30,135 nt of DNA. Source: a virus. Every line of letters starts with the position of its first letter. Positions within the stretch are counted from its first letter, which is position 1. Below the pieces are notes generated by a model. The model saw only the letters and a list, made by a program, of their open reading frames with translations, ran no database searches and was not told the origin of the DNA. Below are positions 5,665-29,056 of the stretch, piece by piece. Both the position numbers and the translations under genes were made by a program. Location: positions 1 through 30,135 of the IMG/VR virus record IMGVR_UViG_3300025889_000631; one strand, 5' to 3'.

Positions 5665-7692
5665 ATGGCACGAGTTGCGGTGCAATTAACGAACTTCACA
5701 GGTGGAGAATTATCGCCACGACTAGATGGTCGTAATGATCTAACCAAATACTCTTCTGGTTGCAAGACCTTAGAGAATATGGTTGTTTATCCACATGGTT
5801 CTGCTGCTAGACGACCTGGAACTCAATTTGTAGCTGAAGTAAAAGACAGCACTAAGAAAACAAGATTAATACCTTTTGAATTTTCTACAACACAAACTTA
5901 TATGTTGGAGTTTGGAGATCAGTACATAAGGTTCTACAAAGATAATGGAGTTATCTTATCTGGTGGTTCAGCATATGAAATTGCTACTCCTTATTTAGAA
6001 TCTGAACTGTTTGATATTAAATATGCTCAATCTGCAGATGTCATGTATATCTGTCATCCTAATCATGCAGTTAGAAAGTTATCCAGAACAGGACATACTT
6101 CCTGGACATTGACACAAGTTGATTTTACTAAAGGACCATTTCAAGATCATAATATTACTACAACTACTATGTCTGCATCACATACTTCTGTTGGTTCAAC
6201 AGGAACATTAACTATATCTTCTACAACTGGTATTAATGCTAACCAAGGTTGGCTAACTACTGATGTGGGAAGATTAGTACATTTAAAAGATGGTCATTAT
6301 AAAATAACAGGAAGAACATCAGCAACAGTAGTTACCTCTATTTGTGAAGTATCGCCATCTTCTTCTTCTGCTACAACGGACTTTGCTTTAGGTGCTTTCT
6401 CTGATACTTCTGGTCATCCAGGTTGTGTAACCTTCTTTGAACAACGATTAGTATTTGCAGGAACGAAAGAACAACCACAAACTTTATTCTTTTCTAAATC
6501 AGGGGATTATGAAAACATGGATGATAATTACCATGGAACAGTATCTGATGATGATGCTATTATTTATACGATTGCGTCTAACCAAGTCAATGCCATTAGG
6601 TTTATGACTGCTACTAGAACTTTAATTGTAGGTACAGCAGGTGGTGAATTTACAGTATCAGGTGGTGGAACAGATGTTGCCATTACTCCTACGAATATTT
6701 TAATTAAAAGACAATCTAACCATGGAGCTGCTAACTTAGATGCGATTGCAGTTGGTAATGTCACTTTGTTTTTACAAAGAGCAAAAAGAAAGATTAGAGA
6801 ACTAGCTTATAACTTTGATGTGGATGGTTATCTTGCTCCTGATATGACAATCCTTGCAGAACATATTTCTGAATCAGGTATTACACAAATGGCGTATCAA
6901 CAAGAACCTAATCAAATCATTTGGTGTGTACGAACTGATGGACAACTGATTGCATTAACCTATCAAAGAGAACAACAAGTTGTTGCTTGGCACAGACATA
7001 TCTTTGGTGGATCTTTTTCTAGTGGTAATGCTGTGTGTGAATCGGTTGCTGTTATTCCTACAGATGACAATGAATACCAAGTATGGATTATTATTAAACG
7101 AACTATTGATGGTGCTACCAAACGCTATGTAGAATATTTGCATAACTTTAATTTTGATGAAACAGATAATACAGATTTTAATTTCTTAGATTCTCAACTA
7201 AGTTACTCTGGTTCTGCAACTACTACTATTTCAGGATTAGGTCATTTAGAAGGTCAGACAGTTGCTATTCTTGCAGACGGAGCTACACATCCTAGAAAGA
7301 CAGTTACTTCTGGTTCTATTACTTTAGAACGATCAGCTACCAAAGTAAAAGTAGGATTACCTTATACTTCCCTTTTGCAGACTATGCGATTAGATGCTGG
7401 TTCACAGGATGGTACATCGCAAGGTAAAACCAAAAGAATATTTGATATTACATTAAGAATTTATGAGTCTATTGGTATTGAAGTAGGACCAGACTTAAAC
7501 AATATGGAACGAATACCTTTTAGATCTTCTGCTACTTTAATGAACCAAGCTATCCCAGTATTTACAGGAGATAAAGAAATAGAATTTAGAGGAAACTATG
7601 AAACAGATGGTTATGTATATGTAAGACAAGATCAACCTTTACCTTTAACCATTTTATCATTATACCCAAGATTGGTAACCAATGACGGATAA
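5665..7692 (+). CDS. Tail tubular protein B (nozzle)
   Basis: A 675-residue protein matching the T7 gp12-like nozzle family. It begins with the diagnostic LTNFTGGELSPRLDGRNDLTKYSSGC region, followed by ENMVVYPHGSAARRPGTQFV and FEFSTTQTYMLEFGDQYIRFY. The middle carries beta-rich repeats, including PGCVTFFEQRLVFAGT, also shared by the family. It forms the hexameric tail end through which DNA passes. The stop overlaps the next start by 11 bases. A DnaA-box-like 9-mer at 5787-5795 lies within the conserved VYPHG codons and is probably coincidental. Confidence 0.92.
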   Translation: MARVAVQLTNFTGGELSPRLDGRNDLTKYSSGCKTLENMVVYPHGSAARRPGTQFVAEVKDSTKKTRLIPFEFSTTQTYMLEFGDQYIRFYKDNGVILSGGSAYEIATPYLESELFDIKYAQSADVMYICHPNHAVRKLSRTGHTSWTLTQVDFTKGPFQDHNITTTTMSASHTSVGSTGTLTISSTTGINANQGWLTTDVGRLVHLKDGHYKITGRTSATVVTSICEVSPSSSSATTDFALGAFSDTSGHPGCVTFFEQRLVFAGTKEQPQTLFFSKSGDYENMDDNYHGTVSDDDAIIYTIASNQVNAIRFMTATRTLIVGTAGGEFTVSGGGTDVAITPTNILIKRQSNHGAANLDAIAVGNVTLFLQRAKRKIRELAYNFDVDGYLAPDMTILAEHISESGITQMAYQQEPNQIIWCVRTDGQLIALTYQREQQVVAWHRHIFGGSFSSGNAVCESVAVIPTDDNEYQVWIIIKRTIDGATKRYVEYLHNFNFDETDNTDFNFLDSQLSYSGSATTTISGLGHLEGQTVAILADGATHPRKTVTSGSITLERSATKVKVGLPYTSLLQTMRLDAGSQDGTSQGKTKRIFDITLRIYESIGIEVGPDLNNMERIPFRSSATLMNQAIPVFTGDKEIEFRGNYETDGYVYVRQDQPLPLTILSLYPRLVTNDG

Positions 7693-8137
7693 TATACTAC
7701 ATATAGTGCCTTATATTGCAAATCATGGTAAGATAATTTTATCTAGTCAAATGAACCATGCTTTAATGGATAAGGATGCAGAGTTTGATGGAGAAACAAT
7801 GAATCTAGAAGAGAAAGGATTAGCTTTTACTTGTATGATTAATAATGAACCTATAGCGGCTGCTGGAATGAAATTACTTTGGCAAGGAGTTGCAGAGGGT
7901 TGGGTATTAGCTACAGCTAAAGTTTGGAATCATCCTAGAACAATAGCTCGTGCTATTAAAAAGAATTTTGCAAGATTAGCAATGGAACATAAGATACACA
8001 GAGTACAAACTGCTGTACGATCCGAGTTTGGAACTGGTATTAAATTTGCTAAGTGGTTAGGTTTAGAGAATGAGGGTTTAATGAAACGATATGGTTTTGA
8101 TGGTGCTGACCATTATAGATTTGCGAGGTTATTCTAA
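7682..8137 (+). CDS. Internal virion protein A-like (T7 gp13-type, acetyltransferase-like fold)
   Basis: A 151-residue protein in the position of T7 gp13. It shows a GNAT-like layout: CMINNEPIAAAGMKLLWQGVAEGWVL in the middle, a basic helix KNFARLAMEHKIHRVQTAV, and a C-terminal FAKWLGLENEGLMKRYGFDGADHYRFAR that is very common in this family. Proteins of this type are annotated as internal virion protein A or as N-acetyltransferase; enzymatic activity in the phage is unproven. Its neighbours on both sides are tail and core proteins. Confidence 0.82.
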   Translation: MTDNILHIVPYIANHGKIILSSQMNHALMDKDAEFDGETMNLEEKGLAFTCMINNEPIAAAGMKLLWQGVAEGWVLATAKVWNHPRTIARAIKKNFARLAMEHKIHRVQTAVRSEFGTGIKFAKWLGLENEGLMKRYGFDGADHYRFARLF

Positions 8138-8568
8138 TGAGTTTTGTATTTGATATAGCAGGAGCTAGGCAATCAAGAACAATAGGAAAATACAATCAAG
8201 CTATTCAAGAAAGAAATGCAAAAGTTGCAGAACAAGAAGGTCAGCTTATACTAGATCAATTTGATAATTATACTTTACCAAAATTAGTAGAAAAAATTGA
8301 TCAATTAGAAGGTGAAACTAAAGTTGCTTTTGCAAAATCTGGTGTTGAGGAGTCAGGTACTGCTCGTAAAATTAAAAGATATAACGCAGAACAAGGTGAA
8401 AAAGAAATAGAGATTGCAAGATATAATGCAGAGATAGGCAAATCAAGAAAATTTGAAGAAGCTAATTTTGCTCGTATGCAAGGAAGTCTTGCTAGAATGC
8501 AAGCTAAACAAGCTGAAATCGCAGGTTATGCTAGAGCAGGCGAAAGTTTAATGAGAATGTATGGTTAA
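8137..8568 (+). CDS. Internal virion protein B-like (T7 gp14-type)
   Basis: A 143-residue Ala/Gln/Glu-rich helical protein in the gp14 position. T7 gp14 is ejected from the capsid and forms the outer-membrane part of the DNA channel. Long amphipathic helices dominate (residues 20-45 and 80-140), with a VAFAKSGVEESGTARKI segment in the middle of a type seen in other podoviral gp14-like proteins. The start overlaps the previous stop by one base. Assignment rests on pattern plus gene order. Confidence 0.75.
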   Translation: MSFVFDIAGARQSRTIGKYNQAIQERNAKVAEQEGQLILDQFDNYTLPKLVEKIDQLEGETKVAFAKSGVEESGTARKIKRYNAEQGEKEIEIARYNAEIGKSRKFEEANFARMQGSLARMQAKQAEIAGYARAGESLMRMYG

Positions 8569-8572
8569 TAAT

Positions 8573-8791
8573 ATGAGAAACTATAAAAAAGAATACGCAA
8601 ATTATCATTCTAAACCAGAGCAAAAAAAAGATAGAGCTGGTAGAAATGGTGCTAGAAGAATGATGAAAAAGAAATATGGTAATAGTTTACTTGGTAGGGA
8701 TGTAGATCATAAAGATAGAAATCCAAGAAATAATAGTATGAGTAATTTAAGAATACAATCTAAATCAATGAATAGATCAAGGAATAGCTAA
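8573..8791 (+). CDS. Small HNH endonuclease-like protein
   Basis: A 72-residue basic protein with a compact HNH motif: GRDVDHKDRNPRNNSMSNLRIQS (residues 41-63), in which DVDH supplies the metal-binding Asp/His and the later Asn residues follow. N-terminal RAGRNGARR is typical of short phage HNH proteins. I chose the second ATG (MRNYKKEY), as related proteins begin that way; an ATG at 8561 would add four residues and overlap the previous gene. It lies between the gp14-like and gp15-like genes, where T7 has none, and so looks like a free-standing homing endonuclease. Confidence 0.8.
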   Translation: MRNYKKEYANYHSKPEQKKDRAGRNGARRMMKKKYGNSLLGRDVDHKDRNPRNNSMSNLRIQSKSMNRSRNS

Positions 8792-13952: not shown

Positions 13953-15359
13953 ATGACAATATCATCAACAACAGTTAAAAATTCATATAACGGAGATGGC
14001 TCTACAGCTACCTTTACCTATACCTTTAAGATCTTTGCAAACTCTGATTTGCAGGTTATTATTCGTTCTGCTTTAGGAACAGAGACAGTTAAAACATTAA
14101 CTACGCATTATACAGTTACTGGAGCTGGTTCAGCATCTGGTGGAGATATTACATTTACTGCTGGAAACATTCCTGCATCTGGAGAGACAGTCGTATTAAG
14201 AAGAGCTATACCACAAACACAAGCGATTGATTATATAGCTAACGATCCTTTCCCTGCTGAATCTCACGAAGAAGGTTTAGACAGAGCAACTATGGCAATC
14301 CAACAGCTTCAAGAAGAAGTAGATCGTGCTATTAAATTATCCAGAACCAATACCATTACATCTTCTGAATTTACTGTAGGTGCTGCTAATCGTGCTAATA
14401 AAGTTTTAGCATTTGATGCTTCTGGAGAACTTTCCGTTGCACAAGAATTAGGACAATTTCAAGGCAACTGGTCTGCTGGAGAAACTTTTGCACAAAGGGA
14501 TTTAGTTAAAGATACTTCTAACAATAATATTTATATTTGCTTAACTGCACACACTTCTTCTGGTTCACTTCCTATTAGTTCTAATGCGGATGTGGCTAAA
14601 TGGAGTTTAATTGTAGATGCTGCTAGTGCTACAGCTTCTGCAGCCGCAGCTGCAAGTTCTGCAACAGACGCAGAGACAGCACAAACAGCCGCTGAAGCAG
14701 CTCAAGCTGCAGCAGAGTTAGCAGAGACCAATGCTGAAACTGCAGAGACTAATGCTGAGACGGCTCAAACTGCAGCAGAAACAGCACAGACTGCTGCCGA
14801 GTTAGCAGAAAGTAATGCTCAAACTTCAGAAACAAATGCTGCAAATTCTGCAACATCAGCTTCTGGTTCAGCAACAACTGCAACTACACAAGCTGGTATC
14901 GCAACGACACAAGCATCTAATGCTAGTACATCAGCATCCAATGCCGCAACATCAGAAAGCAACGCAGCTTCATCTGCAAGTGCAGCTAGTACATCAGCAT
15001 CTAACGCAGCAACATCTGCTACTAATGCTTCCAACTCAGCTAGTGCCGCTTCTACCTCAGCTTCTAATGCAGCTACTTCTGCAACTAATGCTTCTAATGC
15101 TCAGACAGCAGCAGAGACTGCACAAGCCGCAGCTGAATTAGCTTATGACAATTTTGACGACAGATACTTAGGACCTAAAGCTAGCGACCCTTCAACAGAC
15201 AATGATGGTGATGCTTTGATAGATGGTGCTTTGTATTTTAATACAACAGGAAATGTACTTAAATATTGGGATGGTTCTGCATGGCAGAATGTTGAAGCTA
15301 CAGATACATCATCTTTTGCAACTAACGGATTTGCTATTGCAATGGCAGTTGCTCTCTGA
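13953..15359 (+). CDS. Tail fibre with T7-type N-terminal anchor
   Basis: A 468-residue protein. Residues 1 to about 135 match the N-terminal domain of T7 gp17 that attaches the fibre to the tail (NSYNGDGSTATFTYTFKIFANSDLQVII, then FPAESHEEGLDRATMAIQQLQEEVDRAIKL). A carbohydrate-binding-like short module (WSAGETFAQRDLVKDTSNNNIYIC) follows at about 170-190, then a long Ala/Ser/Thr/Asn repeat region (about 222-395) expected to be a trimeric shaft. The C-terminus ends in a small beta module (LYFNTTGNVLKYWDGSAWQ). There is no large receptor-binding head; that role probably lies in the following genes. The stop overlaps the next start (TGATG). Confidence 0.9.
   Translation: MTISSTTVKNSYNGDGSTATFTYTFKIFANSDLQVIIRSALGTETVKTLTTHYTVTGAGSASGGDITFTAGNIPASGETVVLRRAIPQTQAIDYIANDPFPAESHEEGLDRATMAIQQLQEEVDRAIKLSRTNTITSSEFTVGAANRANKVLAFDASGELSVAQELGQFQGNWSAGETFAQRDLVKDTSNNNIYICLTAHTSSGSLPISSNADVAKWSLIVDAASATASAAAAASSATDAETAQTAAEAAQAAAELAETNAETAETNAETAQTAAETAQTAAELAESNAQTSETNAANSATSASGSATTATTQAGIATTQASNASTSASNAATSESNAASSASAASTSASNAATSATNASNSASAASTSASNAATSATNASNAQTAAETAQAAAELAYDNFDDRYLGPKASDPSTDNDGDALIDGALYFNTTGNVLKYWDGSAWQNVEATDTSSFATNGFAIAMAVAL
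14620..15140 (+). repeat. Low-complexity repeat region coding the fibre shaft
   Basis: Degenerate units of about seven codons (variants of AETAQTA, SASNAAT and SATNAS) recur for about 170 residues. The repeats are visible at DNA level as recurring GCA/TCA/ACT/AAT codon blocks, and keep other frames open by chance on both strands. Such tracts commonly change length by recombination. Confidence 0.85.
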
Positions 15360-15763
15360 TGCAAACTCTAGACTGTAAAAAATGTTCTGACAATTTATCA
15401 TTAGATAATTTTTATTTTAATAAAAATGGTAAATACAAAAGACAAAATATCTGTAAAAAATGCATGAACATTTATGACTATAAAACAGACAAAAATTTTA
15501 AATTAAAAAAAGCATACGGAATTACTTTAGAGCAATATAATGAATTACTATCTAGCCAAAATCATAAATGTGCTATTTGTAACATAGATAATAATGGTAA
15601 ATATCGTAATAAACCAAGAGCTTTTGCCGTAGATCATTGTCATTCTACAGGTAAAATTAGAGGATTATTATGTAGTGATTGCAACACTGGTATTGGATTG
15701 TTAAAAGATAATGTTAATTTTTTAGAATCTGCTATTAAATATTTGAATAAAAATAGAAATTAA
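15359..15763 (+). CDS. Recombination endonuclease VII-like protein
   Basis: A 134-residue protein of the phage endonuclease VII family, a Zn-binding HNH-fold nuclease that cuts branched DNA or acts as a homing enzyme. Cys pairs lie at 6/9 and 32/35 (an added zinc knuckle), then at 71/74; VDHCHSTGKIRGLLCSDCN (91-109) supplies the His-rich catalytic motif and the second Cys pair 105/108. All expected residues are present. It is wedged between the tail fibre and the next virion gene with a one-base overlap, unlike T4 endonuclease VII, so a mobile or homing role is likely. It has lower G+C than the fibre gene before it. Confidence 0.88.
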   Translation: MQTLDCKKCSDNLSLDNFYFNKNGKYKRQNICKKCMNIYDYKTDKNFKLKKAYGITLEQYNELLSSQNHKCAICNIDNNGKYRNKPRAFAVDHCHSTGKIRGLLCSDCNTGIGLLKDNVNFLESAIKYLNKNRN

Positions 15764-25073: not shown

Positions 25074-25113
25074 AAGATTAATTATAACGATTCCTTAATC
25101 GTATTATAATCTT
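25074..25113 (-). terminator. Bidirectional-looking terminator at the convergent junction
   Basis: An outer stem AAGATTA/TAATCTT (25074-25080 with 25107-25113) and an inner stem ACGATT/AATCGT (25087-25092 with 25097-25102) around a CCTT loop. On the minus strand the outer stem is followed directly by a short T run (25071-25075), so it should stop the recombination operon; it overlaps the last codons of the DnaA-like gene. For plus-strand transcripts the following T-rich tract is less good. Confidence 0.6.
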
Positions 25114-25606
25114 CCCAAATTCTTTTTCCTTCTTGCCAAAACCTTTTCTTTTCATATTTCATTTTAAGATGATGCACGATGGTGGAGTGATCTCTTTCTC
25201 CTATAAACATAGACACAGAGTTTAGGGAAATATTTAATACTTCTTTAATTAAATTAATAGCAATGGATCTGGCTTGCACCAAAGACATTAATCGTTTATT
25301 AGAAATAAAATCTTCTTTGCTAACTTGATATAAATCACAAACCTTATCTACAATATCATTGCCAATGGTAATTCCTGTTTCTGTTATTTTATTGGAATGA
25401 TTTTTATTAATGTATTTAACTCTAACAATTTCTTTGCTGAATTGATTAGACTCCAATCTATCTATTTGCTTTCTATGTTTTATTCCTAAGTTATATCCAT
25501 TCCTGGCAGCAGTTAGATAAATAGTTTTCTCTCTTGCTGTAAGATTTTCGTAAGGGGTAAAGTTTAATACTTGTTGTAGTTCTTCGTTTTGTTTTTGGTT
25601 AAGCAT
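25082..25606 (-). CDS. DnaA domain IV-only DNA-binding protein
   Basis: A 174-residue protein whose C-terminal half (about 80-150) matches domain IV of the replication initiator DnaA, the helix-turn-helix that reads DnaA boxes. Visible marks are IVDKVCDLYQVSKEDFISNKR, SLVQARSIAINLIKEVLNIS with Arg113 at the conserved DNA-contacting position, and the signature GERDHSTIVHH (136-146; usual form GGRDHSTVIHA). There is no AAA+ ATPase domain, so it cannot itself form an ATP-dependent initiation filament. The N-terminal 75 residues are helical and of unknown role. AGAGAGG lies before the start. It is the last gene of the minus-strand recombination operon. Confidence 0.85.
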   Translation of the reverse strand: MLNQKQNEELQQVLNFTPYENLTAREKTIYLTAARNGYNLGIKHRKQIDRLESNQFSKEIVRVKYINKNHSNKITETGITIGNDIVDKVCDLYQVSKEDFISNKRLMSLVQARSIAINLIKEVLNISLNSVSMFIGERDHSTIVHHLKMKYEKKRFWQEGKRIWEDYNTIKESL

Positions 25607-26000: not shown

Positions 26001-26279
26001 CTATATCTTTTTATGTAATTCTTTAGCCATATCTAAATAAATACTAGCATCCAAATAACTATCTGCTTTAAATTTCTCTGTGGTTCGTAACATCTTTAAC
26101 ATAACCATACATTGTGCTACTTGGTGTGGTTTAATATCTTTATGAAGATGATCCTTTAATACAACAGACCAGAGCATAGCCAATAAATTAAAATTGACTT
26201 CATAGTTTCCATACTCAGAATTTTTCTGCTCACGCAGTTTGTTTTTGATTTGCTCTTCTAAATTTATAGTTTTGTTCAT
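26001..26279 (-). CDS. DUF6378-like protein
   Basis: A 92-residue protein with the pattern I associate with DUF6378: YGNYEVNFNLLAMLWSVVL, then IKPHQVAQCMVMLKMLRTTEKFKADSYLDASIYLDMAKEL. The family is common in phages, often near nucleotide or recombination genes; its function is not known. GGAG eight bases before the ATG serves as ribosome site. The start overlaps the upstream gene by 50 bases in another frame. Confidence 0.72.
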   Translation of the reverse strand: MNKTINLEEQIKNKLREQKNSEYGNYEVNFNLLAMLWSVVLKDHLHKDIKPHQVAQCMVMLKMLRTTEKFKADSYLDASIYLDMAKELHKKI

Positions 26280-26533: not shown

Positions 26534-26842
26534 TTAAAACTGTCCTTTAAATCCTGTGTTTGTTTTACCATAAGTCGGCTTTGCCGCAAATGATTTTTGT
26601 TGGTATCCACCAGCAGGTTTAGCACTAGACTGAGATGGTGTAAGGATTATTGTTAATCCTCCTACCTCATCCTTAGATGCGAATGCTGCTTGGTTATACC
26701 AATCATTCCCAATTTTAACTCCAATTTTCCAGTTTTTTCCTTCTGGTGCATTTGGGTTAGCTGGTCCTACCATTACAGGTAAGTTAGAACCCTCAGTATA
26801 TTGAGGATTGGGTACTAAGTTAATGTACAGTTTGTCTGACAT
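26534..26842 (-). CDS. Possible ssDNA-binding protein, 102 aa
   Basis: A 102-residue protein immediately downstream of the ERF-type gene. A beta-rich N-terminal part (LYINLVPNPQYTEGSNLPVMVGPANPNA, WKIGVKIGNDWYNQAAFASKDE) could be an OB-type or DUF736-like fold; residues 68-102 are a flexible Gly/Gln/Lys/Phe-rich tail (AGGYQQKSFAAKPTYGKTNTGFKGQF). Phage recombination operons often include an SSB, hence the suggestion; the acidic tail tip of bacterial SSBs is absent. AAAGGAG lies before the ATG. Confidence 0.5.
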   Translation of the reverse strand: MSDKLYINLVPNPQYTEGSNLPVMVGPANPNAPEGKNWKIGVKIGNDWYNQAAFASKDEVGGLTIILTPSQSSAKPAGGYQQKSFAAKPTYGKTNTGFKGQF

Positions 26843-26868: not shown

Positions 26869-27522
26869 TTATTTATGGCTTAGTTGTTCCATACGACTTT
26901 CATAAACTTTTTTTAGTTCTGAAAGTGCGTTTGGATTTTTATGTTGAAGATATTTAATTTGATCTGCATACACAGTATCTTTAAGATGTTTCAATCTTGG
27001 AAGATGTATTGCTTGTGCAAATTCATTTTTTATATCTTCTATATCAACATCAATCTCTCCTGCTTGTTGCTGAGTTTGACTAATGTTACCACTAGCTTTT
27101 GCTTGTGATTCTTTTTTAGATTTGAATGGTTTTGCTTCATACCCATCCTCGTAATCCATCCCTGTCTTTAAATTAAGTGCATTGAGGAACGCATATTTTT
27201 TAGCATAGCTCATTCCATTACCAGTGCCAAACTTATCTAAGTTTCCCATGGCACTACATCCATTAATCTCAATATAGTCTGTTGGATTATCAATATCATG
27301 TATTTTCATAAAGCAAGTTACCATGACATAACTATCTGTAAGTTCATTGCTGTAAGTACACACAGGATATAAGCCATTAGATAGCAATGCTTCCATAGCA
27401 ACCTTCTGTACTTCATCATGTTGCAATGGGTTAAAGTGCATCCCTGGAACTCTTTTTCCTTTGACTACCCCTGTTGCTTCGCAAGCAGCTTTATGTAGTT
27501 TTTGGTATATGTTTTGTTTCAT
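26869..27522 (-). CDS. ERF-type single-strand annealing recombinase
   Basis: A 217-residue protein of the Erf type, which anneals complementary single strands in phage recombination and repair. The core is recognisable: AMEALLSNGLYPVCTYSNELTDSYVMVTCFMKIHDIDN (43-80), then EINGCSAMGNLDKFGTGNGMSYAKKYAFLNALNLKTG..YEDGYE (85-129), the GxGxxYAKRYA...DD block of the family in a variant form. The C-terminal region is a Lys/Gln linker and helical tail. Its partner is the exonuclease encoded at 27825, separated by a small membrane protein gene. Confidence 0.82.
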   Translation of the reverse strand: MKQNIYQKLHKAACEATGVVKGKRVPGMHFNPLQHDEVQKVAMEALLSNGLYPVCTYSNELTDSYVMVTCFMKIHDIDNPTDYIEINGCSAMGNLDKFGTGNGMSYAKKYAFLNALNLKTGMDYEDGYEAKPFKSKKESQAKASGNISQTQQQAGEIDVDIEDIKNEFAQAIHLPRLKHLKDTVYADQIKYLQHKNPNALSELKKVYESRMEQLSHK

Positions 27523-27531
27523 TTTTTTCTC

Positions 27532-27825
27532 CTATCGTTTTATATTAAATGGGTTTTCAAAAATACTTGGATATTGATGAAACCATTTCATTTGTTTTTT
27601 TTGCCATTCAGATAAGCTATCCAAGTTAGCCACCATTAAAGTCATTAATAAAATAAAACTAATGACAATAATCTTTAATGTTCTTTTTAGTTTCTTTTGT
27701 TCTATTCTTTCTTGCCTGACCTGTTCGTAAAAACCTTTCAGCATATGATCCCTTTCACAATTAAATACAGTTTTATCTCTATCTCTTAATCGTTCTATGT
27801 GAGCTATTGTATTTTCATCAATCAT
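27532..27825 (-). CDS. Small membrane protein in the recombination operon
   Basis: A 97-residue protein starting at the ATG overlapping the exonuclease stop (TAATG) with GGGGGAT just upstream; an upstream ATG at 27837 would add four residues. Residues 1-49 are charged and helical (RLRDRDKTVFNCERDHML...RQERIEQKKLKRTL), then one membrane segment at 51-68 (KIIVISFILLMTLMVANL) and a short aromatic C-terminus. No family recognised. A membrane protein between exonuclease and annealing protein is unusual. Confidence 0.6.
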   Translation of the reverse strand: MIDENTIAHIERLRDRDKTVFNCERDHMLKGFYEQVRQERIEQKKLKRTLKIIVISFILLMTLMVANLDSLSEWQKKQMKWFHQYPSIFENPFNIKR

Positions 27826-28718
27826 TATATCCCCCATAATTGTTTAGCTATACCAACTTGCTCTTCAGTAAGATCAGAGTAATAGAAGTTTTTTAAATCT
27901 GGAGCTTCCACTAACTTTGCCATTTGACTTGCTTGACCTTTGCTGACCTCAAGTAAATTTTGTATGGTAAATGCTTTGTTTACTAATTGATGATAGTAGT
28001 ATTCTAGTCTGTCATCTTCTGGTTCAAAGATTTTATATTCTTCTTGATTGACATAACCAAGATATCCTTTTTTACCTGTAGCTTTCCAATAGAACGCAAC
28101 TTGCTTTAGATAGGTTTCTTCGCAATCATCAATCGTGTTAGGAAGTTTTTGTATGATTTGACCCATACCATTTTTATTTTTTCTAAAGTTAATTGGTTTT
28201 GATTTTAGTTCTAAAAATTTATTTTCAGATTCAAAATCAATACGACCCAAGATGTCTAAGATTAATCCTTGTGGTGTTACATGAACATATCGTTCTGATG
28301 TTAAAGGTTCATCACCAAATACTTCTTTGACTAACTTTAATGTTTGTTCAATAGATGCTTTGCACGATGGTATCATATCAATTCTACATTGTTCATCTCG
28401 TTCATCTTTTGGTTCGTTATTATTGATGATTGCCAATTCATGTTCAAAAATTTTATCAAACAATTCTGGTTTCACTTCTTCTTTTTCAGCAGCTTTAAAA
28501 ATATATTTAGATAATAATCTTTGTGCTACATTTCCGCACAACGCACCATAGTATGCTTTATAACCTACTTTGTTTTGCCTACGCATTGCTTGTGTACTAC
28601 AAACATAACTGATGATGTATTTTTGGATGGGGATATTAAGACTAGATGGTGAGAAATGGTCATAAGATTCTCCACCACTTAATTGTGATCTTATTGTATT
28701 AGCTAGTTGTTCATTCAT
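27825..28718 (-). CDS. PD-(D/E)XK exonuclease (RecB/Cas4-like)
   Basis: A 297-residue nuclease of the PD-(D/E)XK class as found in RecB, Cas4 and phage exonucleases. It begins with an SPSSLN segment (HFSPSSLNIPIQKY), and carries the catalytic core GRIDFESENKFLELKSKP: Asp161, Glu170-x-Lys172, and the following QVAFYWK motif with Gln206 and Tyr210. The usual His of motif I (GxxxH) appears as Gln in GNVAQRLL. Together with the ERF-type protein it forms the common exonuclease/annealing pair of phages. It is the first gene of the operon. Confidence 0.83.
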   Translation of the reverse strand: MNEQLANTIRSQLSGGESYDHFSPSSLNIPIQKYIISYVCSTQAMRRQNKVGYKAYYGALCGNVAQRLLSKYIFKAAEKEEVKPELFDKIFEHELAIINNNEPKDERDEQCRIDMIPSCKASIEQTLKLVKEVFGDEPLTSERYVHVTPQGLILDILGRIDFESENKFLELKSKPINFRKNKNGMGQIIQKLPNTIDDCEETYLKQVAFYWKATGKKGYLGYVNQEEYKIFEPEDDRLEYYYHQLVNKAFTIQNLLEVSKGQASQMAKLVEAPDLKNFYYSDLTEEQVGIAKQLWGI

Positions 28719-28742
28719 TTTGTTTTCCTATTTTGTTTTTTA

Positions 28743-28751
28743 TTATCCACA
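28743..28751 (+). promoter_or_regulatory. Consensus DnaA box in the divergent control region
   Basis: TTATCCACA matches the high-affinity 9-base DnaA box exactly. It lies directly downstream of the -10 of the minus-strand promoter, around its expected start point, and next to a tandem AAAGAT repeat (28757-28768) in an AT-rich stretch. It could be an operator or part of an origin. Confidence 0.65.
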
Positions 28752-28780
28752 CTAATAAAGATAAAGATTGTGCTTGTCAA
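28752..28780 (-). promoter_or_regulatory. Promoter of the minus-strand recombination operon
   Basis: Read on the minus strand, TTGACA (28780-28775) is followed after exactly 17 bases by TATTAG (28757-28752), four of six to the consensus. A transcript from about 28745 would cover the exonuclease and all genes to the terminator at 25074. A GATAAT (28747-28742) further downstream has no matching -35. Confidence 0.6.
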
Positions 28781-28801
28781 TAGGCAAAAAGTATATATAC
28801 A
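28774..28801 (+). promoter_or_regulatory. Promoter of the Cro-like gene, overlapping the minus promoter
   Basis: TTGTCA (28774-28779) and TATACA (28796-28801), 16 bases apart, would drive the Cro-like gene. The -35 shares its bases with the -35 of the divergent promoter, so both cannot be occupied at once. The dyad TTTAACAATTAAA (28811-28823) lies between this promoter and the gene. Confidence 0.55.
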
Positions 28802-28840
28802 TTAAGGTTATTTAACAATTAAACAAAAAAGGAAAATTAC

Positions 28841-29056
28841 ATGACACTAAAAGAGTACCTAGATGAAAATAATATATCTAGTTTAATTGAAGCCGCCAAG
28901 TTTTTTAATTTGCCTGGCAAAAATCCTAGCACCAATATCATGCGTTATATTCGTGGAACTAGAATACCCCATCAGGAAATAATGAAAGTTATTTTTAACA
29001 AAACAAATGGAAAGGTTACACCTAATGACTTCTACCAAAAAATCTGGAGTAAATAA
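28841..29056 (+). CDS. Cro-like HTH regulator
   Basis: A 71-residue protein of the Cro/CI type: LKEYLDENNISSLIEAAKFF (helices 1-2), a recognition segment NPSTNIMRYIRGTR and a closing GKVTPNDFYQKIW typical of Cro-like repressors. Compact size indicates a DNA-binding domain only. AAAGGAAAA precedes the ATG. It is read divergently from the recombination operon, from an overlapping promoter, so control of that operon and of itself is likely; the operator is not known. Confidence 0.75.
   Translation: MTLKEYLDENNISSLIEAAKFFNLPGKNPSTNIMRYIRGTRIPHQEIMKVIFNKTNGKVTPNDFYQKIWSK

Follow-up and report, generated by a model that had tools for sequence, protein, structure and literature searches.

The locus and its features

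The window, by which we mean the whole stretch of DNA analysed, comprises the 30,135 bases of an IMG/VR virus record, and the site examined within it lies at 28743-28751. The 9-mer found there on the plus strand, TTATCCACA, matches the DnaA-box consensus TTWTNCACA exactly, as expected from the original prediction of a perfect box. It falls in a gap of 122 bp (28719-28840), the size given in that prediction, between the start codons of a minus-strand nuclease ORF and a plus-strand 71-aa ORF. The features of the region are as follows.

28841..29056, plus strand: divergent-operon gene for a 71-aa protein that may be a Cro-like regulator (weak match to PHROG 35, transcriptional repressor, E = 0.08; relatives have a syntenic small ORF)
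28719..28840, no strand: divergent control region, 122 bp, between the starts of the nuclease ORF and the 71-aa ORF
28775..28780, minus strand: −35 hexamer TTGACA (perfect) of the nuclease operon (sequence; TTGACA/TTTACA in nearly all relatives)
28752..28757, minus strand: predicted −10 hexamer TATTAG of the nuclease operon, abutting the box (sequence; alignment of relatives)
28743..28751, plus strand: perfect DnaA box, proposed operator (exact match; offset recurs in relatives; TGTGGATAA on the operon strand)
27825..28718, minus strand: 297-aa product of the first operon gene, annotated as ‘putative nuclease’ in isolated pelagiphages (28-40% identity to Pelagibacter phages by tblastn; PHROG 1706, weak)
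27532..27837, minus strand: 101-aa ORF, probable membrane segment (ORF list; syntenic ORF in L008)
26869..27522, minus strand: Erf-family single-strand annealing protein (Pfam ERF, E = 3e-9; PHROG 155, E = 3e-15)
26534..26842, minus strand: 102-aa protein, SSB-like by position only (syntenic ORFs in L008 and L012)
26001..26279, minus strand: DUF6378 protein (Pfam, E = 5e-16)
25082..25606, minus strand: 174-aa product of the last operon gene, a stand-alone DnaA domain IV protein and the proposed repressor (Pfam, PDB 1J1V, AlphaFold, residues)

The predicted promoter of the nuclease operon reads, on the minus strand, TTGACA (28780-28775), 17 nt, TATTAG (28757-28752) and TGTGGATAATAAAA, with no gap before the box. 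Relatives show TATAAA, TATCTA or TATTAA at the same offset as the assigned −10. If transcription starts 7 nt past the predicted −10, the box would span approximately −6 to +3, and the earlier claim that the site lies over the expected start of the minus-strand operon agrees with a predicted TTGACA-N17-TATTAG that directly precedes it. The box thus sits at the core promoter of an operon whose last gene encodes a DnaA-type protein. The complement of the −35, TTGTCA (28774-28779), could double as the −35 of the divergent promoter. Near that divergent promoter there is also an AT-rich palindrome, AGTATATATACAT at 28789-28801 of the window and GGTTATAACA in the gap of the related loci L005-L012, which may serve the small Cro-like protein as an operator.

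The prediction had put the 9-mer at less than one occurrence per 30 kb and far fewer in the gap. Dinucleotide shuffles gave the same picture, with 0.27 perfect copies of TTATCCACA expected per window, where two were seen, and ∼0.001 expected per 122 bp. The looser consensus TTWTNCACA occurred four times in the window against 5.5 expected; it is therefore not enriched, and the signal is positional rather than genome-wide. We also weighed the other perfect copy, at 5787-5795, as a possible regulatory site but rejected it: it lies within the coding sequence of a structural gene and spells conserved-looking codons (..VYPH..); it is probably incidental.

Gene content of the operon and its relatives

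The prediction that the last gene of the operon encodes a DnaA domain IV protein was upheld by the match of the 174-aa ORF (25082-25606) to Bac_DnaA_C; a few small ORFs sit between it and the DUF6378 gene. The order nuclease, annealing protein, small genes and DnaA_C is identical in 10 Pelagibacter phage isolates, in which the terminal gene is annotated either as ‘DNA replication initiation (DnaA)’ (HTVC024P/034P/035P/100P/203P/204P) or as a hypothetical protein. By gene content, with the head–tail connector, nuclease, annealing protein and DnaA_C order shared, the window belongs to the HTVC010P-type pelagiphages. Matches to its DnaA_C protein and nuclease are almost confined to Pelagibacter phages, and its proteins are only 23-40% identical to those of the isolates. 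DnaA has been reported in all HTVC010P-related genomes (Chen et al., 2019; PMC6811365), so the gene itself is already known and it is the box that is in question. The DnaA_C gene closes the operon wherever coverage reaches, and the lone genome without a DnaA_C match, C72C1, also lacks such a box.

Several other genes were observed in passing. The ‘putative transcriptional regulator’ of pelagiphage isolates (L031:3040-3738 and L008:2413-3141) matches O-like/DnaD-like initiation families (PHROG 270, 6e-7; PHROG 678, 1e-5); it probably serves as the replication initiator of the phage. Phosphoadenosine phosphosulfate reductase genes occur in the divergent operon, at positions that differ between phages (L037:3556-4377 in HTVC034P; L040:2702-3376 in C72C1). 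In L008, alone among the relatives, a DNA methyltransferase-like ORF (7812-8552) is inserted right after the DnaA_C gene. Two stretches of the window, 15359-15763 and 8561-8791, lie between tail/structural genes and have translations that, judged by eye, resemble HNH-type endonucleases. A search of genome contigs with the nuclease for a host link returned one match, L267 (PBPJ01000001.1), a 17-kb contig in a Woesearchaeota bin; this assignment is probably a binning error or contamination.

The terminal gene encodes an isolated DnaA domain IV

Residues 84-148 of the 174-aa protein match Bac_DnaA_C (PF08299) with 61.9 bits, above the curated cut-off of 31.5 (E = 6e-17), and phmmer aligns the protein with domain IV of Escherichia coli DnaA (1J1V) at 2.8e-8. 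An AlphaFold model has a mean pLDDT of 83, rising to ∼90 in the C-terminal half. Superposed on 1J1V it gives a TM score of 0.87 (target-normalised) and an rmsd of 1.6, with a modest top Foldseek E of 1.2e-3, and the protein is thus predicted to fold like domain IV in the DnaA-box complex.

R399, R407, D433 and H434-type residues contact DNA bases in 1J1V. Taking R399, R407, Q408, D433, H434, T435 and T436 of E. coli as reference contact residues, the window protein retains the equivalents of R399, R407, D433, H434, S435, T436 and H439, with Q408 replaced by S. Equivalents of R407, D433 and H434 are kept in all 83 relatives compared, and that of R399 in 80 of them. The recognition loop varies between clades: the window clade has the bacterial-type G-x-R-D-H, and most isolates have a one-residue deletion and Q-D-H.

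Domain IV is the only DnaA domain recognised in the 174 residues. AAA+ domain III and domain I are absent, and the N-terminal 80 residues are predicted to be helical and match no family. Lacking the AAA+ domain, the protein could not be a normal initiator alone. We conclude that it is an isolated DnaA domain IV.

Close relatives keep the 9-mer at shifting places

Because a search with the DnaA_C protein yielded few loci from close relatives, we used the nuclease as the anchor. Every contig with a 72-100% identical nuclease carries a perfect or one-base-off box in the gap. In the window and L003 there is a single perfect box, at the nuclease promoter. L004 has this box and another perfect one at the divergent promoter. 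L017-L019 have the perfect box at the divergent promoter and a degenerate one, TGTGGACAG, on the nuclease side, and in L005-L012 an inverted box, CTATCCACA, lies on the opposite strand, overlapping or fused to the −10. The second-box site of L004 and L017-L019 corresponds to about 28796-28804 of the window, which reads ATATACATTAAGG there. The block holding this second box is the main difference between the gaps of the window and L004, so the window lineage has probably lost the second box.

In close relatives the regulatory reading stands up to the proposed check, that the 9-mer be conserved while the flanking bases drift: all of them have a perfect or one-off box in the gap, although the box itself has moved or flipped. 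A binding site would be expected to behave in this way, with a 9-mer retained while its place and direction change; neither a promoter hexamer nor an RNA feature would.

Distant relatives and a collection-wide scan

We then aligned the promoters of 265 loci, a number that includes many overlapping fragments of single contigs, on the −35, and grouped them into 36 families that are < 70% identical over 50 nt. In six of the 36, a TTWTNCACA match lies 22-24 nt past the −35 in the orientation of the window. One thousand permuted motifs put through the same test scored a mean of 0.034 families and a maximum of five, and one permutation that resembles an extended −10 also scored high. The HTVC010P-like contigs carry TGTGGAAAA at offset 23 from the −35, and cultured HTVC010P likewise has it within the 22-24 nt range. 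In HTVC010P the element TTGACAAGAAGTTATTTTACCTGTATCTATGTGGAAAA (record positions 30479-30516, minus strand) has no second match of this kind in the genome; it lies upstream of the nuclease gene (29347-30234) with a short ORF between. The sequences CTATACACA and TTATACACA, found near the −10 in some clades, resemble an extended −10 and were not taken as strong evidence.

A scan of 2.9 million viral contigs that made no reference to genes used the pattern TTGACA-N16-18-TAT-N3-4-TGTGGAWAA. It matched 51 contigs; in 25 of them this nuclease follows on the same strand, 47-333 nt downstream, and no nuclease-bearing contig in the scan had a match elsewhere. The control pattern with the box reversed matched 42 contigs, none with the nuclease. 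The 25 linked contigs comprise nine distinct promoter sequences and are mutually related, so they represent fewer independent origins, perhaps three to five. The boxes of distant clades may have been kept from one ancestor rather than gained repeatedly.

Clades without the box

The box is absent from all 26 distinct promoters with a QDH/S408 protein (HTVC035P, HTVC024P, HTVC100P, Greip and relatives) and from 30 of the 47 promoters of the QDH/N408 type. Absence of the box from close relatives that keep the gene had been named as the outcome that would refute the prediction. Close relatives keep the box, but this outcome is seen in other clades: HTVC035P, HTVC024P, HTVC100P and Greip keep the DnaA_C gene without it. 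The box is therefore a clade feature, not universal, and is not needed for having a DnaA_C gene; with so many promoters that have the gene and no box, the role of the gene is independent of the box.

Where a box is present, its spelling follows the type of protein. A at position 3 goes mostly with the RDH loop and T with QDH/N408, and no box is found with QDH/S408. Such a correlation would be expected if the phage protein read the box, but common descent alone could yield it, since the pattern is confounded by descent and involves few independent events.

Discussion

We favour, with a probability of about 0.55, autorepression: the box would serve as the operator at which the phage's stand-alone DnaA domain IV protein acts. 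The nuclease, Erf, DUF6378 and DnaA_C genes would be transcribed early as one transcript from a sigma-70-type promoter. As the DnaA_C protein accumulated it would bind TGTGGATAA over −6 to +3, and the bound protein would block RNA polymerase and so cap expression of the recombination/replication operon. We prefer autorepression because the box comes right after the −10, where a bound protein would occlude the polymerase, and because it recurs at this place in six of 36 families against a permuted mean of 0.034, with 25 of 51 pattern matches linked to the nuclease against none of 42 for the control. Close relatives also retain the 9-mer even where it has moved or inverted. Wherever coverage reaches, the operon closes with the DnaA_C gene, and C72C1, with no DnaA_C match, has no such box. 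The base-contact residues are conserved, the protein is predicted to fold like box-bound domain IV, and the spelling of the box tracks the type of protein. Counting against autorepression, boxes are missing from all 26 QDH/S408 promoters and from two thirds of those of the QDH/N408 type, and host DnaA should bind the same 9-mer.

That last point raises the possibility, which we regard as real but clearly the less probable one, that host DnaA reads the box and that its level or nucleotide state holds down or times the operon, coupling the recombination genes to host growth or the cell cycle. The site in the window is a perfect consensus for ordinary bacterial DnaA, host DnaA is there from the first minute of infection, ahead of phage proteins, and host regulators are known at phage promoters, as with CtrA (PMC9437464) and the footprinted DnaA boxes that lie downstream of lambda pO (PMC3985674). 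Against this, if the host supplied an unchanging reader, the spelling or absence of the box would not be expected to track the type of phage protein, and the +1 position on a DnaA_C-encoding operon is better explained by feedback. Mascolo et al. (PMC9437464) looked at how DnaA sites are distributed overall in alphaproteobacterial phages and detected no positional signal, a null result that fits a single site per genome. Feedback by the phage protein and sensing of host DnaA can operate together. A more speculative proposal, which we hold tentatively, is that the stand-alone DnaA domain IV of many SAR11 phages competes with host DnaA for boxes, halting host initiation, and also represses its own operon through a captured box over the start, the specificities of box and protein co-evolving by clade.

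Alternatively, the sequence could be a core-promoter or early-transcript feature, a discriminator that only resembles a DnaA box: it abuts the −10 in several clades, related sequences such as TGTGTATAA come close to an extended −10, and one extended −10-like permutation scored high. We consider this unlikely, given that the 9-mer is on the opposite strand in L005-L012, that L017-L019 keep it intact at the divergent promoter and degenerate at the nuclease promoter, and that many promoters of the family function without it while the reversed box is unassociated with the nuclease. Of the three roles in the original prediction, negative feedback fits best and a replication origin is disfavoured. 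An AT-rich divergent gap with a DnaA box and, in relatives, an O-like initiation gene nearby in the divergent operon might suggest that the gap is the phage origin, to be opened by DnaA or the phage's DnaA_C protein once recruited to the box. A DnaA-dependent origin is recognised by a cluster of boxes with an unwinding element, but here there is one box (two at most in relatives) and no array, it lies on core promoter elements, and many relatives are boxless. Genome-wide counts of TTWTNCACA in 16 relatives were close to those of a backward control and, as in the window, unclustered at the gap; we dropped the origin reading after these counts, the O-like protein of the relatives' divergent operon being the more natural initiator, and now think it very improbable. 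Equally improbable is a chance occurrence. Random 9-mers do arise, and the other perfect copy is found in a structural gene, but with ∼0.001 expected in the gap, recurrence at shifted places in close relatives and the nuclease linkage of the scan, chance is already largely refuted by the permutation and collection-wide tests.

Bacterial dnaA is autorepressed, in E. coli for example, through a DnaA box at its own promoter. The arrangement proposed here is similar: the DNA-binding domain is of DnaA type, the operon that encodes it has a 9-bp box at its promoter, and negative feedback is presumed. It differs in that the phage protein is domain IV without AAA+, the box lies over +1 and the operon contains recombination genes. 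In lambda, too, promoters controlling phage replication genes carry DnaA boxes (pO/pR region and ori-lambda; PMC3985674). There, from the titles cited in that article, host DnaA is the reader and an activator at pR. Lambda encodes no DnaA_C protein, and the phage of the window has one box, overlapping +1. The CtrA-controlled promoters of alphaproteobacterial phages (PMC9437464) likewise carry the motif of a host-type replication/cell-cycle regulator, but the regulator is a different one, and the motif of the window is linked to a single operon, which itself codes for the corresponding domain. With the HTVC010P-type pelagiphages the window shares the operon order and terminal DnaA_C gene, and HTVC010P has the same promoter with TGTGGAAAA; the window differs from the isolates in its TTATCCACA spelling and RDH-loop protein. 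Use of domain IV outside an initiator has a parallel in TnpA_REP-like HuH proteins with a Bac_DnaA_C tail, in which, by contrast, the domain is fused to a nuclease and the targets are unlike DnaA boxes (PMC6006769).

The pelagiphage papers that we found do not describe a box at the HTVC010P-type operon promoter. More broadly, a search of the open-access literature, excluding preprints and subscription papers, returned no published DnaA box at the phage promoter of a DnaA_C-encoding operon, in keeping with the earlier statement that no phage switch of this type has been described.

HTVC010P-type phages are among the most abundant viruses of the sea, and gene control in them is nearly unknown. 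The present locus provides a concrete candidate operator and a candidate regulator in one operon, present also in cultured HTVC010P and hence directly testable. It suggests a possible use for a DnaA domain that has been annotated only as ‘DNA replication initiation’, namely as a transcription repressor instead of, or besides, an initiator. In a phage related to the abundant SAR11 viruses, the box at the promoter for the phage's own DnaA-like protein and its recurrence in relatives point to a self-limiting switch.
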